The translations under genes were made by a program, and so were the position numbers. Shown piece after piece: positions 9,414 through 63,537 of a stretch of DNA of 64,000 nucleotides. Source of the DNA: Polaribacter porphyrae. Its GTDB lineage: Bacteria; Bacteroidota; Bacteroidia; Flavobacteriales; Flavobacteriaceae. Where the stretch lies: positions 520,256 through 584,255 of the forward strand of contig NZ_MSCN01000001.1 in assembly GCF_002954685.1 (NCBI RefSeq), written 5' to 3'. The first letter of the stretch is position 1. Each line of letters begins with the position of its first letter. The notes beneath the pieces are model-generated. The model worked only from the letters and a program-made list of their open reading frames with translations, had not been told where the DNA came from and did no database searches.

Positions 9414-11837
9414 TTAAAAAATATTTTTAAGCCTATTATAATCAATAAAATATACAAATCTTACAGAAATGGTATGTCTTTGAGATTGGTCAAAAAGATT
9501 TTCTATATTTTCAAAAAAGTTTAAATTTGAATTTGTATTAGAATTAAATATTGAGTTTCTGTAAAATGCGATTAATTGACTTCCAGGTGCAAATTGCCAA
9601 ATGTAATTCAAATCTAAATTCCAACTATTAAAGTTTACATTATCTCCTTGATAAGTTGTATTTGGATCCAAACCACCTTCTGCATTTAAATTGTTAAAGC
9701 TAATATAACTTACAGCTTCCCAAAAATGCCTAAAACTTAATGATAATGAGGAGTTTGTATTAAAACTATATTTGCCAGCAATTGTATTTGTATAGTTTTT
9801 ACGGTCTCTAAATCCGAAGATAATATTATTTGCTGTTTCATCTACATAACCTTGGTCATCATTGGTCTTATTAAAACGCAATCTGTATCGTAAAGAAAAT
9901 TGATTATTAAATCGATAACGAGGAGAAAAACTGTACCCATATCCAACTTTTGGGTTGTTGGTATAGCCTGTATAATATCCATTTACATTTAATGCTAATT
10001 TCTTTTGCGAGTTTGTAGAGATAAATCCGTTTACATTTAAACGTTCTGGTTGTAAAAAGAATTGACCACTTGTTGTACCTTGCCTTGGTTCAAAAAAATC
10101 TTTTTCTTCACTACCATAATTTAAAAAGCCTCCAAATGAAAACCTTTCTTTGGTTTGTGCATTTCCACCAATTCCTGTAAAATAACCTGTATATGTTCCA
10201 GAGAAATGTTGAAAGTTTATATTATGATATGAGTTGAACCAAATTCTATTAAAATTTTTAGTGGCTTTTACAGTTCTCCAACCTAAATTTCCATATATAG
10301 TTTGTTGATCGTTTGTGAAGAGAATCCCTAAATCATTTGGGTTAAAGTCTTTATTTTCAAAATTATAACCTACTTCCCAAAACCAATTTCCTGAATTGTA
10401 ACCAAAACTATTATCAAAAGTCCAACCTGTATTTGGGTTGTTTGGATCATCAGAAATAGTACTCATTCTTACAGAACCATCAGCATTATATCTACTATCT
10501 TTGGTTTCTATATGCCAATCCATTGCAGTAACATTTGCATCTCTAAATCTTCCATCTCTAGTAACATTTGTATTAATCAAAGAAATTGTAGAATTTTGAT
10601 TAAACTGCTGATCTAATACTAATATGTTGTAGTTTGTAAAAGGGTCTATAACTTCTTTTCTTGTTTGCCCTGTTTGATTATCTTTAATAGTTGCTTCTGC
10701 TTTTTGAGTAATCGCATTAAAAAATCCTATACCTAATCCATTTTTAGTTCTACCAGAAACTTTAATGGCATTAATCATGGTTGTTTTATTAGGATAATCT
10801 ATAATTTCTTCATTGGCGTTTAAAGTACTAGATACATCAAACTGATCAATTGGAGGACCACCAATCCTTCTAGAGTAAAAAAGGTTTGCTATGTTAAATA
10901 ATTCTGTACCTTCTGTAAAAAATTGTCTTTGTTCTGTAAATTGTTGTTCAAAAGGGCCTAAATTTAAAACGACATCATCAAAACCAACCTGACTAAAATC
11001 AGGAACTAACGTAGCGTCTAAAGTAAAGTTTTCTGTTAAACCATATTTAATATCCATACCTACATTCCAATCAAAATCTGTAGTGCCTTCAAAAGTATTT
11101 GTGACAGCAGATGCATAAGGATATAAATTTAATCTTGTAGGTGGTTTAATATTTCTTAATTCCGTAACCAAGCCATCATATTGTGTCCACCTTCCAACAG
11201 AATTATCTACAAAAGTCCAAGTGTGTTGCTCATTTAACAATTCTAAACGTCTATGAAAGTTGAAACCCCATTCTTGTACTTTTCTGTTTGCAAAACGTAA
11301 AGCTCTGTATGGTATTTCCATTTCTACATTCCATCCTTTTTCGTCTATTTTAGCAGAACTGTCCCAAACAGCACTCCAATTAAAATCTTCTCTACCATTT
11401 GAGATGTTGGCATCAGCTTGGTTACCTGTAGATTGTACAATAAATTCAAAAGGATTTTGCCCATCATCATTTGGATTAATTGTTACCAAAAAGAAATCAG
11501 CGATTGTAAAATTATCTCTCACAGCAAATTCTTTTGGGATATTTGCAGGATCTGGATCATTCATTTGAGCAGAAATATATATGGCATTATCATCATAAAC
11601 TACTTTTACAGTAGTTTGATATTCGTCTTTAACGGCTTCACCATTTTCTGGTCTAAACACAACAAAGTTTGTAGCTATTTCTGCATTATTCCAAGCTTCA
11701 TCATCTAAAACGCCATCAATTTTTGGAGCTTTTTCTATTCTTAAAGCCTTTATTGTTTTACGTTCTTTTTTAGTCTGTGCTGTAAACTGATAGATAGAAA
11801 AACAAACTATCAGTAGTAGTAAATTTTTTTTAAACAT
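9414..11837 (-). CDS. CBM9-like / DUF5916 outer-membrane protein
   Basis: About 807 residues from the Met at 11837, which starts a signal peptide (MFKKNLLLLIVCFSIYQFTAQ); the frame from 11885 adds 16 unlikely residues. After the signal comes a carbohydrate-binding family 9-like domain (KIDGVLDDEAWNNAE through about residue 230), then a long DUF5916 region of alternating aromatic strands ending in Phe, which looks like an outer-membrane beta-barrel. Such proteins are abundant in Bacteroidota and are often assigned to carbohydrate or polymer handling without proof. It is monocistronic: its own terminator is at 9355-9388 and sucC diverges upstream. Confidence 0.85.
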   Translation of the reverse strand: MFKKNLLLLIVCFSIYQFTAQTKKERKTIKALRIEKAPKIDGVLDDEAWNNAEIATNFVVFRPENGEAVKDEYQTTVKVVYDDNAIYISAQMNDPDPANIPKEFAVRDNFTIADFFLVTINPNDDGQNPFEFIVQSTGNQADANISNGREDFNWSAVWDSSAKIDEKGWNVEMEIPYRALRFANRKVQEWGFNFHRRLELLNEQHTWTFVDNSVGRWTQYDGLVTELRNIKPPTRLNLYPYASAVTNTFEGTTDFDWNVGMDIKYGLTENFTLDATLVPDFSQVGFDDVVLNLGPFEQQFTEQRQFFTEGTELFNIANLFYSRRIGGPPIDQFDVSSTLNANEEIIDYPNKTTMINAIKVSGRTKNGLGIGFFNAITQKAEATIKDNQTGQTRKEVIDPFTNYNILVLDQQFNQNSTISLINTNVTRDGRFRDANVTAMDWHIETKDSRYNADGSVRMSTISDDPNNPNTGWTFDNSFGYNSGNWFWEVGYNFENKDFNPNDLGILFTNDQQTIYGNLGWRTVKATKNFNRIWFNSYHNINFQHFSGTYTGYFTGIGGNAQTKERFSFGGFLNYGSEEKDFFEPRQGTTSGQFFLQPERLNVNGFISTNSQKKLALNVNGYYTGYTNNPKVGYGYSFSPRYRFNNQFSLRYRLRFNKTNDDQGYVDETANNIIFGFRDRKNYTNTIAGKYSFNTNSSLSLSFRHFWEAVSYISFNNLNAEGGLDPNTTYQGDNVNFNSWNLDLNYIWQFAPGSQLIAFYRNSIFNSNTNSNLNFFENIENLFDQSQRHTISVRFVYFIDYNRLKNIF

Positions 11838-12082
11838 GTATTTTTGGTTGATTGTGTTTAAACACGATGCGAATGTATTTATCATTTTTTGTGCTAAATC
11901 ATAACATCATGTTAATTATTAGAGAGACATCTTAAAATTTAAAGCGTTACAGATAATAATTGTTAATTAAATCTTAAAATATTTTGTACACCAAAATTAT
12001 GTACTCAATAATTATGTAAAAAAGTAAATGTATTGAAGTGTAGAAAACAAGTATTGAACCGTTGCAAAATTTTATGAAATAA

Positions 12083-59159: not shown

Positions 59160-59265
59160 TTATAAATTTTATCAGGCTAAAATTACTAAATTAAAAATTA
59201 ATACAACTCACTACATACATTTTACAGTTCATTACAATCTGTTTTTTTAAAGTAGAGTTAGTATA

Positions 59266-59273
59266 TACTTTTG
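59266..59273 (+). promoter_or_regulatory. -7 box candidate for the NSDHY-repeat gene
   Basis: TACTTTTG fits TAnnTTTG, 44 bases before the ATG at 59318. No clear TTG lies 20 bases upstream. Confidence 0.35.
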
Positions 59274-59317
59274 TGGTATTAATTAACCAAAATTGTAAAA
59301 ATTTAAATTAAGATATT

Positions 59318-60661
59318 ATGAAAACAACATCAATCACAAGTAAAACAAGATTTCTAGTGCTTTTATTAATTGCATTTATTTTTAGTTCATCTTACTTTGT
59401 AGCACAGAATTCTATAACTATTAATAGTAATAAATCTAAAAGTAAAATTAGTATTAGTAATGGTAAGAATGATTTAAAAATTGAATATGAAGGAGAAATT
59501 ACGCTATCTGAAGATGATTCTGATATCAAAGACATTTCTAGAGGTGGTTATATTGAAATAAAAAAATCTTCGTTTGGAAAACGTAGAAAAATCATCATAG
59601 AAAGAGATGGAAGTAAGTTGGTTAGAAAATATTATGTAGGTTGGAGTGAAAAAGATTATTACCCTGATGGAAAAGAGTGGCTAAAAGATATTCTACCAGA
59701 AATTTTAAGATCTACCACAATTGGTGCAGAAAGTAGAGTAGACCGTTTTTATGCAAAAGGTGGTGCAAAAGAAGTGATTGCAGAAATCCAAGAAATGGAG
59801 AGTGATTATGTGAAAAGTGCTTATTTTAAACTGTTATTAAAAAAAGATTTATCTAAAAATGATGTAACTACAACTCTTCAAGCCATTGGGAAAAACATCA
59901 ATTCAGATCATTATTTAAGTAGTATCTTAAGAAAAAATCAGCGTTTATTTTTAAAAAGTCCTGAAACAATTGATGCTTATATTGCTGCTGCAAAAAAAGT
60001 AAATTCTGATCATTATTTAACACAAATTGTAAAAAGTGTAGTTTCAAATAAGAGCATTACAGATACTCAACTAGGCAGTCTTTTAAAAATTTCCAGTAGC
60101 ATCAATTCAGATCATTATTTAACAGAAGTTCTTAAAGATGTTATGAATGATAGAACATTGAATTCTCAAAATATGGAGCAAGTAATGTTACTTTCTAAAA
60201 GTATTAATTCAGATCATTATAAAACCATTATTTTGAAGAAAGCTTTAAAAATGAATAATTTATCTAAAGATGCATATGATACTTTTATCGATTCTCTAGA
60301 CGATGTAAATTCTGATCACTATGCTACTGAAGTTATCAAAGAATTAATGAGTGATAGTTTGAATACAGAGCAATTAAATAAGGTTTTAGCTCTAATAAAA
60401 GATAATATTAATTCAGATCATTATGCAACAGTAATCTATAAGAGAATAGCATCAAGAATGAAACTTACTGAAAATCAATTAATCAGTGTGATATCTTCTA
60501 CAAAACACATAGGCTCTAGTCATTATTTGTCTAGCACTTTATTAGCTTTTGCACCAAAAGTAAAAAAGGGATCAGATAAAGTAAAAGACGCATACTTAAA
60601 GGCTGCAAAATCAATTAATTCAGATACCTATTTAGGTAGAGCTATGAAAGCAATTTATTAA
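59318..60661 (+). CDS. secreted protein with tandem NSDHY repeats
   Basis: A 447-residue protein with a signal peptide (residues 1-30, LLLIAFIFSSSYFVAQ). Residues 40-170 are a beta/alpha module with GGYIEIKKSSFGKRRKIIIE, then LPEILRSTTIGAESRVDRFY and GGAKEVIAEI. This matches, as I recall, the domain that follows the peptidase in some BlaR1/M56-like Bacteroidota proteins. From about residue 175 to the end come about eight repeats of 33-38 residues, each with an (I/V)NSDHY(L/A/K) core, for example NINSDHYLSSILRK, SINSDHYLTEVLKD and NINSDHYATVIYKR. They look like helical HEAT-like repeats. A hairpin terminator follows, and then kinase genes start. Confidence 0.8.
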   Translation: MKTTSITSKTRFLVLLLIAFIFSSSYFVAQNSITINSNKSKSKISISNGKNDLKIEYEGEITLSEDDSDIKDISRGGYIEIKKSSFGKRRKIIIERDGSKLVRKYYVGWSEKDYYPDGKEWLKDILPEILRSTTIGAESRVDRFYAKGGAKEVIAEIQEMESDYVKSAYFKLLLKKDLSKNDVTTTLQAIGKNINSDHYLSSILRKNQRLFLKSPETIDAYIAAAKKVNSDHYLTQIVKSVVSNKSITDTQLGSLLKISSSINSDHYLTEVLKDVMNDRTLNSQNMEQVMLLSKSINSDHYKTIILKKALKMNNLSKDAYDTFIDSLDDVNSDHYATEVIKELMSDSLNTEQLNKVLALIKDNINSDHYATVIYKRIASRMKLTENQLISVISSTKHIGSSHYLSSTLLAFAPKVKKGSDKVKDAYLKAAKSINSDTYLGRAMKAIY

Positions 60662-60667
60662 TAATAT

Positions 60668-60713
60668 AAGCAAGATGGTAAATCTATAGCTGTAGATTTA
60701 CTATCTTGCTTTT
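60668..60713 (+). terminator. hairpin directly before the LytS-type kinase start codon
   Basis: AAGCAAGAT-G-GTAAATCTA pairs with TAGATTTAC-T-ATCTTGCTT: 18 pairs plus one G-U, with a 6-base loop, then TTTT and immediately ATG at 60714. It can terminate the repeat-protein gene. Because it touches the kinase start, it could instead gate entry into the kinase operon. Confidence 0.75.
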
Positions 60714-61763
60714 ATGCAATCAACCAAAAAACCAACCAACTCATTTTTCTTGAAAAAGTATTTTCACATACCTGTTTTAGGCATTTTATTAGGCATTGCA
60801 ATTAGTTATTTTTTAATTTACAGTGAGCAACAAGAAAATATAATCTACTTATTAAAAGATGCAGTATTAGCCTCTGGTTTGGGAATGTTAATCACTTTAA
60901 TAATATCCAAGACTATTTTAATTTTAAATCGATTTTTGCCTTATCAAAATCAAACAGGAAACAGGCTTTTTGCTGGTTTTATAACTCATTTTACGGTTGC
61001 TTTTTCATTAACTCTTATAGTTTTTTATTTTTATCAATTATTCTTTTTTGATGTTACCAATTTCTATGGTGAGTTTGATGCAGTAATTTTAAAATTAGGT
61101 ATTATTTTACTGATTTTAACCATCATTTTTGAAGTCATTTATTTTGCATTATATTCTTACTATTCCTATTCAAAATTTCAGATTGAAACTGTAAAACAAG
61201 AGCGTAAACAAATTGAATTACAGTTAAAAGCACTAAAATCGCAATTAAGTTCACATTTTTTATTCAACAGTTTAAATACCATTTCTTCTTTAATTTATAA
61301 GGATGAAAACAAGGCAGAAACGTTTGTAAGAAGATTGGCAAAAATGTATGATTTTACTTTAAAAAGTTACCATCAAAAATTAATTACATTACAAGAAGAA
61401 GTTGATTTTGTAAATGCATATATTTTTTTATTACAAACTCGATTTCAAGACAAATTTACGTGTTCCATTTCTATTGATGACGATTTGTTGACGAGTAAAA
61501 TTCCGCCATTAACTTTACAAATGTTAGTAGAAAATGCAGTAAAACACAATCAATTATCAGTTGATAAACCTTTGAATATCAATATAAAATCTACAGAAAA
61601 AGAAATTATTATTGAGAATAATATTACAGAAACACCTAAAAATATTACTTCTTTTAATATTGGATTAAAAAATATAAATACTCGTTATTTATTGCTGATA
61701 AACAAAGCAATTTCTGTGATTAGAGGAGAGAATTTTACTGTTAAAATTCCTTTAATAAAATGA
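60714..61763 (+). CDS. LytS-type sensor histidine kinase
   Basis: A 349-residue kinase. Four membrane helices (about 17-36, 50-71, 85-111 and 126-150) are followed by a coiled coil (QIETVKQERKQIELQLKALK) and a His_kinase (PF06580) domain. The phosphoacceptor is H181 in QLSSHFLFNSLNTISSLI, and the ATP-binding N-box is LVENAVKHN (E273, N274). FNIGLKNINTRY is the G-region. It should autophosphorylate and act on the LytTR regulator two genes downstream. The start lies right after the hairpin; a TTG at 60750 is an alternative. It overlaps the pseudokinase gene by 4 bases. Confidence 0.9.
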   Translation: MQSTKKPTNSFFLKKYFHIPVLGILLGIAISYFLIYSEQQENIIYLLKDAVLASGLGMLITLIISKTILILNRFLPYQNQTGNRLFAGFITHFTVAFSLTLIVFYFYQLFFFDVTNFYGEFDAVILKLGIILLILTIIFEVIYFALYSYYSYSKFQIETVKQERKQIELQLKALKSQLSSHFLFNSLNTISSLIYKDENKAETFVRRLAKMYDFTLKSYHQKLITLQEEVDFVNAYIFLLQTRFQDKFTCSISIDDDLLTSKIPPLTLQMLVENAVKHNQLSVDKPLNINIKSTEKEIIIENNITETPKNITSFNIGLKNINTRYLLLINKAISVIRGENFTVKIPLIK

Positions 61764-62782
61764 AAAAACTGTTTATACATCAACCACTTTTTCGTCTGTT
61801 AAGTCCTATAATTAGTGGAATTATCATTTATTTACTGGTTTTATTGTTGAATAATAATGTTCAACAGGCACAAGAACAGTTTTTTAATGAAGAACTGTAT
61901 TTCTGTATTGCTTTAAGCTATTTAATTCAAGAATTCTCAAGAGGACTTTTAGTATTGTTTAAAAAGTTTTTGTCTGATAAATTATCAGCAAAAAATATCA
62001 TTTTACAAATCGTTATTTCTATGCTTTTATGTGTAGCAATTTCCACAATTGCAATCACATTTTATTTTGAATATGTATTGGGATTTACTGCATCAAAAGA
62101 AGAAATTTATGTGTTCAACAGTATTTTCTGCACAATTACTTTTATTTATATTATGCTGTATATCAGTCATCAATATCTGTATAAAATCAACACAGAAAAA
62201 TTAGCACAAGAAGAAATCATAAAACAAAATATAGAAGACGACTTTAAGCAATTCAAAAAAGGAATTAACCCAAATTTATTGTTTGAAAGCTTTGAATCTT
62301 TATTAATTTTAATCAAAACAGATAAAGAAAAATCAGACGATTTTATAGACCATTTAGCCACAATTTACAGATATATTTTATCAGGAAAAGAAAAACAATT
62401 GGTCGATTTTAATGACGAGATTTTAATCGTAAATGAGTTGATACAACTTTTTAACTACTTGCCTTACAGTAACATTGCTATCAACAATAATTGTAAAAAT
62501 TCTTTTTTGGTAGTTCCTGGAAGCCTGTTATTTATTGTAGAGCAAATTGTTAGAACAAGTATTATTTCATCGAGTTCAAAACTTATTATCAATTTTGATA
62601 AAAAAGAAAATGATTTAGAAATTTCTTATTTTAGAAATGATAAAATTACAACCCAATTCAACTTGAAAAATATTGCAGAAATTATAAGAAGTTATCATAT
62701 TTATAGCAAACAAAAAGTAAAAGTTTTAGAAGAAAAATCAACAAGAAAAATAATTTTACCTAAACTAAAAATAATAGTATAA
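61760..62782 (+). CDS. kinase-like protein without the catalytic His (pseudokinase)
   Basis: A 340-residue protein with the same plan as its neighbour: four helices (about 13-31, 44-66, 80-104 and 120-142), then a kinase-like cytoplasmic domain. The phosphoacceptor motif reads KGINPNLLFESFES, with N172 where His is required. The N-box equivalent reads FIVEQIVRTSIISS, so the ATP-coordinating Asn and the following HN pair are replaced, and the G-region reads FNLKNIAEII without Gly. It cannot be a normal kinase. It probably partners the active kinase, for example as a sensor subunit or regulator; that is inference. It overlaps the first kinase by 4 bases and ends 2 bases before the regulator gene. 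Confidence 0.85.
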   Translation: MKKLFIHQPLFRLLSPIISGIIIYLLVLLLNNNVQQAQEQFFNEELYFCIALSYLIQEFSRGLLVLFKKFLSDKLSAKNIILQIVISMLLCVAISTIAITFYFEYVLGFTASKEEIYVFNSIFCTITFIYIMLYISHQYLYKINTEKLAQEEIIKQNIEDDFKQFKKGINPNLLFESFESLLILIKTDKEKSDDFIDHLATIYRYILSGKEKQLVDFNDEILIVNELIQLFNYLPYSNIAINNNCKNSFLVVPGSLLFIVEQIVRTSIISSSSKLIINFDKKENDLEISYFRNDKITTQFNLKNIAEIIRSYHIYSKQKVKVLEEKSTRKIILPKLKIIV

Positions 62783-62784
62783 TT

Positions 62785-63537
62785 ATGAACATCGTTATTA
62801 TTGAAGACGAACAATTAGCAGCAGAAAAATTAGAAAGATATTTGTTAAAATATGATGCTAATATAAAAGTTGTAACAGTTTTATCAAGCATTTCTGAAAG
62901 TGTAATTTGGTTTCAGAATAACACTAATTACGATGTTGTTTTTATAGATATTCAACTTACTGATGGTTTGAGTTTTGAAATATTTAATCAAATAAAAATA
63001 AATAAACCAGTTATTTTTGCTACTGCTTTCGATGAATATGCAGTAGACGCTTTTAAAGTAAATAGTATTGATTATGTGTTGAAACCTATCACTTTTACAG
63101 ACATTTCTAAAGCAATGAATAAACTAAAATCAATGCAAAATTTATTCAATGCAGATGCTGTTCAAAAAGTTGCAGCAATTGTACATCAAAAGAAAGAAAA
63201 AGACCGTTTTTTAGTACGATTAGGAAATCACATTCATTCCATAAAAACAGAGGAAACCGCTTTGTTTTTCGCAGAAGGCAGAACAGTATATTTAGTTACA
63301 AAAGAGAATAAAAAGTTTATCATCGATTTTAAACTAGAGGATGTAAATAGTGTATTGAACTCAAAATTATTTTTCAGAGTAAATCGTTCATTTATTATCA
63401 ATATAAATGCTATAAAAGATGTAATTGTATATTCTAATAGTAGACTTAAAATTACCCCAAAAGTAACTACTGACAAGGAAATTATTGTCAGTAGAGAAAA
63501 AGTTTCTGCTTTTAAAACTTGGTTAGAAGGTGCTTAA
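62785..63537 (+). CDS. LytTR-family response regulator
   Basis: A 250-residue two-domain regulator. The receiver domain has acidic pocket E7-D8-E9, phosphorylation site D55 in VVFIDIQLTD, Thr/Ala switch in IFATAFDEYAVDAF and K100 in YVLKPI. The LytTR DNA-binding domain (about 145-248) has LVRLGNHIHSIKTEETALFF, FRVNRSFIININAIKDV and KITPKVTTDKEIIVSRE. It is the output of the upstream LytS-like kinase. LytTR proteins bind paired direct repeats of about 9 bp; none was recognised by eye. It overlaps the convergent serine hydrolase gene by 4 bases. Confidence 0.94.
   Translation: MNIVIIEDEQLAAEKLERYLLKYDANIKVVTVLSSISESVIWFQNNTNYDVVFIDIQLTDGLSFEIFNQIKINKPVIFATAFDEYAVDAFKVNSIDYVLKPITFTDISKAMNKLKSMQNLFNADAVQKVAAIVHQKKEKDRFLVRLGNHIHSIKTEETALFFAEGRTVYLVTKENKKFIIDFKLEDVNSVLNSKLFFRVNRSFIININAIKDVIVYSNSRLKITPKVTTDKEIIVSREKVSAFKTWLEGA

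Follow-up and report, generated by a model that had tools for sequence, protein, structure and literature searches.

The window analyzed here, a stretch of 64,000 nucleotides from Polaribacter porphyrae (contig NZ_MSCN01000001.1), carries a unit of four genes on the forward strand (59203-63537), which we designate N, A, B, and C. Gene N (59318-60661) encodes a protein with NSDHY repeats, gene A (60714-61763, 349 amino acid residues) a LytS-type histidine kinase with the catalytic residues, gene B (61760-62782, 340 residues) a LytS-type pseudokinase without the phospho-His, the N-box Asn, or the Gly box, and gene C (62785-63537, 250 residues) a response regulator with a LytTR DNA-binding domain. 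The A and B frames share 4 bases, and C starts 2 bases after the end of B. An earlier note on this DNA had described the kinase pair and the regulator; re-reading of the open reading frames confirmed its genes, coordinates, overlaps, and residues.

Components and distribution of the four-gene unit

The window sequence of N contains six NSDHY copies. An AlphaFold2 model (73 sequences, pLDDT 89.2) shows a first helix resembling a signal peptide, a beta domain (about residues 32-112), and an alpha-solenoid with the NSDHY repeats (residues 114-446). N has a predicted signal peptide and is predicted to be exported. It matched no Pfam family and had no convincing relative in the PDB; the five PDB hits with E = 1e-3 or better were for the most part designed or repeat proteins, with TM-scores by query of 0.10-0.20.

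In the Pfam search, A matched PF06580 at 2.6e-23. Its motifs in the window are H181 in SSHFLFN, LVENAVKHN at 271, and NIGLKN at 315. The full catalytic set previously ascribed to A holds for the His and the N-box; in the Gly box, Asn stands in place of the first Gly (NIGL), with G317-L318 kept. H181, N185, E273-N274, and G317-[LI]318 were invariant in all 37 loci read for the residues of A and B (36 loci with confirmed gene order, including the window, and L229), and, with the His, the N-box, and the Gly box all in place (H, EN, and G[LI] in 37/37 loci), A can be classified as a kinase of the PF06580 type. C, the regulator in the same operon, combines a receiver (Response_reg, PF00072) with LytTR (PF04397) in the Pfam search, and its D55 was kept in 21/21 loci.

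Between N and A lies an inverted repeat with 16-bp arms (60670-60709, forward strand), whose last base is 4 bases before the ATG of A; RNAfold gave -27.9 kcal/mol for the gap, and Rfam gave no match. An arm similar to TTGA[TG]TA[CT][CT]TTGGT ends 3-4 bases before the ATG of A in 17 of 21 loci. By a strict count, the arms pair well in 9 of 23 loci; thus, the hairpin was rejected as a universal element. The 3' arm is in frame with the ATG (IDYLG-like when translated), and an N-terminal extension of A through it was also rejected, because most loci have stop codons a few codons upstream, with a stop within the motif itself in L046 and one where the motif ends in L048. The inverted repeat may lower the expression of A-B-C relative to N, or may govern the translation of A.

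The order N-A-B-C was found in 36 of the 37 judgeable loci, from three families. Besides the window, these were all 18 other B-bearing genomes of the family sample (299 genomes, own genome included), two named Polaribacter records (L039 and L040), two genus genomes (L127 and L128), three genomes of two other families (L175-L177), and ten more genus loci in which only the tail of N was visible. The sole exception, L232, is a second copy in genome G948, with a stop in B and no N within 470 bases upstream of A; L229 begins inside A and was left out of this count. In L049, a PF00144 gene is inserted between N and A. The genes flanking the unit mostly vary between loci, close relatives apart. L039-L040 and L127-L223 are close pairs (B 97-98% identical), and no other pair exceeded 90%.

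Relatives of B form a sharp group: 19 of the 299 family genomes matched at E = 2e-80 or better, and all other matches were at 4e-20 or worse. Within the genus, B was present in 15 of 97 genomes. Of the 395 genomes in the phylum sample, 15 matched B at 1e-30, and matches at 5e-66 or better came only from the own genome, two genus genomes, G714, G703, and G853. In the family sample, N occurred in 20 genomes and B in 19, with both in 19. The earlier note had suggested a tie between the kinase pair and the NSDHY protein next door; with a common operon and nearly the same genomes, this tie proved stronger than foreseen. G112 was the sole family-sample genome with N and no B. In this 64% complete genome (L158), a fragment of N at the start of a contig is followed by unrelated genes, with no A, B, or C beside it.

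The stretch shared by the A and B frames is 4 bases long in 35 of 38 loci and 8 bases long in two; in L176, the genes are 130 bases apart. Since the frames overlap in 37 of the 38 loci, A and B are likely translated together.

Residues, fold, and selection of the pseudokinase

B has GINPNLLF at 168, hence N172, and IVEQIVRTS at 259. It matched PF06580 at 1.1e-8 in the Pfam search, and as paralogues A and B share 25% identity over 239 columns (E = 6e-9). The phosphoacceptor His, the N-box Asn, and the Gly box, by which an active LytS histidine kinase is recognized, are all missing from B. Among the 21 PF06580 matches in the genome, B scored lowest (39.6 bits; the next was 67.4) and was the only one with its motifs gone; the other 20 all have the phospho-His motif and the N-box, both by pattern and by eye. 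At another locus (L214; G000:C1:2893100-2897400, minus strand), there are three consecutive LytS-type kinase genes, all with the phospho-His motif and the N-box.

The acceptor position was read in 36 readable loci and in a wider set, where 119 database proteins and 12 loci gave 131 rows (with the own sequence present twice and nine minus-strand loci and P0102 dropped), of which 130 were readable. The His-to-Asn change was not conserved; position 172 drifts, with D 10, E 9, N 7, S 3, T 2, K 2, R 1, M 1, and H 1 in the loci, and N 57, D 19, H 18, K 13, E 11, S 5, G 3, Y 2, T 1, and R 1 in the wider set. In the latter, its entropy was 2.46 bits, against 0 to 0.53 at positions 168-171 and 173-177. 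By this pattern, the helix around position 172 is kept and the acceptor is not. The loss of the N-box was largely conserved across the relatives, with Asn in only 2 of 35 readable loci, and a Gly-box-like string was seen in 1 of 131 rows of the wider set; by these counts, B has lost its ATP-site residues.

The earlier note had named a His in homologues of B, or a sporadically broken frame, as the mark of a decaying duplicate. Both occur in a minority. His is present in one of the 36 readable loci (L222) and in 18 of the 130 rows, but the N-box Asn is missing from L222 and from all 18 rows, and a Gly-box-like string is likewise missing from every one of the 18. Judging from these residues, catalysis is very likely lost even in the His-bearing relatives. 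As for the frame, 13 of the 15 B-bearing genus genomes have an intact B, but two (G923 and G996) have only a broken copy, and a third, G948, has an extra broken copy beside the intact one. Query ranges and identities in G923 and G996 are the same as those of L039 and L040. The frame is broken in B alone in L039/L230, and in A and N too in L040/L231; broken frames were left as read, with no base put back. The breaks in A, B, and N of L040 may represent an assembly error or decay.

An AlphaFold2 model of B (82 sequences, pLDDT 82.6, pTM 0.50) contains helices at 9-30, 44-70, 77-107, and 113-168, which we read as membrane and signalling helices, together with two DHp helices and an alpha/beta CA domain. 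The top PDB matches of the model were histidine kinases (DesK, YycG/WalK, a phytochrome, and the pseudokinase DivL), and TM-scores by query were 0.24-0.33 among the 50 matches listed. With the fold kept in the model and the catalytic residues lost from the sequence, B would be a pseudo-histidine kinase.

For the pair L127-L128, dN/dS was 0.132 for B, 0.169 for A, 0.149 for N, and 0.089 for C; dS was 1.1-1.4, so these values are approximate. Three more pairs yielded a dN/dS value for B, at 0.134-0.245; for many pairs, dS was saturated or not computable. The values of 0.13-0.25 indicate that purifying selection acts on B. We also compared A and B by region in 21 loci (210 pairs), with L039 and L040 left out and the domain limits set from the His position. 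Identity in the N-terminal (membrane) region was 56.4% for B and 34.6% for A, with B higher in 210/210 pairs. The corresponding values were 52.5% and 58.8% in the DHp region (B higher in 25/210 pairs), and 36.5% and 47.9% in the CA (ATPase) region (B higher in 6/210 pairs). As the pairs are not independent of one another, the counts are descriptive and not a statistical test. On these identities, A and B have diverged in complementary ways, B keeping the N-terminal region and A the CA region, and this contrast is the main evidence that B may sense and A catalyze. Taken with the fixed gene order and the residue pattern, the dN/dS values bear out the earlier view that B is under selection, bound to the unit, and not simply a decaying duplicate.

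The putative operator and candidate regulon

Upstream of N is a putative operator, ACARTTCAMTACA N8 ACARTTCAMTACA, composed of two 10-base direct repeats with an 11-base spacer (period 21 bp). In the window, it occupies 59203-59237 on the forward strand, with two RTTCAMTACA-like half-sites (score 40.7; leave-one-out 37.5), and a promoter -7-like box, TACTTTTG, lies at 59266-59273 on the same strand, at offset 59 from the first half-site. The site chosen for each locus was the best one in the stretch around the first possible start of N. The pattern was present in all 21 loci first examined, at 15 to 18 of the 18 half-site letters and with leave-one-out scores of 16.9-45.6; among 625,706 positions, no other scored above 8, except the operators of L127 and L128. 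In total, the operator was found before N in 24 of 26 loci tested (the first 21 together with L127, L128, and L175), and L176 and L177 had only weak matches (14.2 and 5.5). This tally omits ten genus loci with too little upstream sequence. In L050, L055, and L056, the operator falls within N when N is read at its longest, but precedes the ATG that is likely the true one. A box similar to TAnnTTTG, the -7 box of Bacteroidota, was best or tied best at offset 59 in all 24 operon sites (tied in L043, L050, and L175).

According to passages of PMC4847170, LytTR-type sites have repeats of 9-11 bases and spacers of 11-13 bases, and the geometry found here fits this rule. The operator is upstream of the promoter with its center at about -60, as for AgrA in passages of PMC4227749. 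From this position and shape, C likely binds the 21-bp direct repeat.

A strict pattern, composed after the operators had been seen, was searched with up to three mismatches in the 22 unit-bearing genomes and gave 29 sites, compared with 0 in the control. Twenty-one of the sites are before N, in 21 of the 22 genomes (no strict-pattern site was found before N in G016), and all eight sites elsewhere were examined. In the case of a looser scan (56 sites; control 17), we examined the seven non-operon sites with at most one mismatch and one site with two. The box was best or tied best at offset 59 in 9 of 11 non-operon sites, including L090 from the looser scan (tied in L089, L090, L094, and L208). 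L091, inside a gene, and L096 match in their half-sites but have no box at offset 59; we discarded both as chance matches.

The genes behind the nine sites encode PF00144 serine hydrolases (five), DUF5916/CBM9 proteins (two), an OMP_b-brl_3 protein, and an S41 peptidase. The five PF00144 genes are in three genomes; one of these genes lies behind a MarR gene, and two are orthologues that are 85% identical. One DUF5916/CBM9 site is in G090 and the other in the present window, where the second operator-like site of the genome (12029-12062, minus strand), with a -7-like box, TAATTTTG, at 11992-11999, lies upstream of a gene (9414-11885, minus strand) for an 823-residue CBM9/DUF5916 protein (PF19313, 2.5e-229), a predicted regulon member. 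In L177, a DUF5916 gene follows C. To judge from these sites, the unit likely regulates its own expression together with a small and variable set of envelope proteins.

After C, on the minus strand from 63534 to past the end of the window (L097:5790-7493), there are a PF00144 gene and, by eye, an AraC-like gene. This neighboring PF00144 gene was rejected as a target of C because the operator was absent from all 26 PF00144 loci of this genome. Adjacency to C was also dropped as evidence for a target, since in L040, L127, and L128 the gene after C is a different one, DoxX-like by eye. In this genome, the PF00144 and AraC-like pair separates C from a gene that is also DoxX-like by eye and has its relatives immediately after C in those three loci; the stretch is perhaps a local insertion.

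A possible shared receptor and other proposed roles of the pseudokinase

The overlapping frames, the position of A and B side by side in all loci examined, and their complementary conserved regions suggest one receptor. With slightly better than even confidence, we take B, the conserved pseudokinase, to pair with A as the sensing half of a membrane receptor predicted to phosphorylate C. A and B would meet via their DHp helices. The well-kept N-terminal membrane region of B would read the state of the envelope, probably through the exported solenoid N, and A would bind ATP, carry out the His phosphorylation, and pass the phosphoryl group on to C. In its phosphorylated form, C would then bind the 21-bp direct repeat and raise N-A-B-C, closing a loop in which N is made first, and would also raise a few envelope genes, here that for a DUF5916 protein. 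N would either switch the receptor on or hold it off. N is predicted to be exported, is first in the operon, and is inherited with B, which makes it the obvious candidate for what is sensed or fed back; our preferred guess, by analogy, is a CpxP-like brake on the receptor.

Some features of the sequences weigh against a shared receptor: B is less conserved than A in the DHp region (52.5% vs 58.8%), its frame is broken in two close relatives and in the second copy of G948 (L232), where N is also missing, His occurs in a minority, 130 bases separate A and B in L176, and G112 has a piece of N apart from the other three genes. Because all four genes are in one operon, joint inheritance does not prove contact. 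We advance only tentatively, and would sooner doubt than accept, the broader idea of a class-wide envelope receptor in which B is a dedicated membrane sensor reading exported N, A the catalytic engine, and N both product and gauge.

It is rather unlikely that B works apart from A, its own dimer capturing phosphorylated C or N as a DivL-like reader or sink to tune the output and A being an ordinary homodimeric kinase. PMC4211667 describes DivL as binding a phosphorylated response regulator via a docking surface, without kinase or phosphatase activity, and the DHp segment is the least variable region of B in the 131-row set (mean entropy 0.94, vs 1.14 and 1.82). However, the adjacency of A and B, their overlapping frames, and the complementary conservation of the CA and N-terminal regions better fit the shared receptor. 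More doubtful still is a role of B as a dominant-negative brake, in which dead heterodimers would hold A in check until B is taken away by N or a ligand. Such a brake would have the same anatomy as the shared receptor, and the sign of the effect is not given by the sequence; nothing specific counts against it, and physically it is a version of the shared-receptor reading. That B is a duplicate on its way out is very improbable: the two genus genomes (of 15) with nothing but broken copies, and the additional broken copy in G948, would fit, but the dN/dS values, the spread over three families, and an N-terminal region better kept than that of A disfavor it. A His-phosphotransfer acceptor served by A is hardly credible, given that the His found in 18 of 130 readable rows is absent from the window, which excludes this role for this genome by sequence, and from 35 of 36 readable loci.

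As in the LytS/LytTR systems BtsS/BtsR and YpdA/YpdB of E. coli, a PF06580 kinase is beside a LytTR regulator, the kind of regulator that AgrA of S. aureus also is. The present unit differs in having a second, dead LytS protein as a fixed member and, at the head of the operon, the gene for a repeat protein that is predicted to be exported. Among eukaryotic kinases, pseudokinase partners are well known. DivL is not known to be encoded with its partner kinase, and the partners in the RetS/LadS-GacS network are not known to share one operon. Our searches of the open-licence literature turned up few cases for bacterial histidine kinases: DivL, the laboratory-evolved ChrS, an Rcs paper, and the RetS/LadS/GacS network.

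According to PMC4211667 and PMC9491836, DivL of Caulobacter is, like B, a natural pseudo-histidine kinase with its fold kept, and it acts on another kinase. It has PAS sensor domains (PMC4211667), whereas B is a LytS-type protein encoded with A. The ChrS pseudokinase of Corynebacterium glutamicum was laboratory-evolved; passages of PMC9491836 report that this inactive kinase raises the output driven by a paralogous kinase, that native ChrS and HrrS heterodimerize in two-hybrid tests, and that truncated ChrS gave no significant heterodimer signal. ChrS thus arose in an evolution experiment, but B is natural and spread over three families. In the RetS/LadS-GacS network, one sensor kinase acts on another, the partners being hybrid or unorthodox kinases (PMC4866733), unlike the LytS-type A and B.

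In the open-licence literature, we found no paper on a pseudokinase together with LytTR, none with at least three of pseudokinase, LytS, LytTR, and Bacteroidetes, none with LytS, LytTR, Bacteroidetes, and two-component together, and none using the word DUF5916. Pseudo-histidine kinases as such are already known (DivL and ChrS). The DUF5916 family gains a candidate regulator. The unit offers a natural dead sensor kinase with many sequences, a defined putative operator, and a small predicted regulon; thus, the role of a dead sensor kinase is open to deletion and reporter tests.
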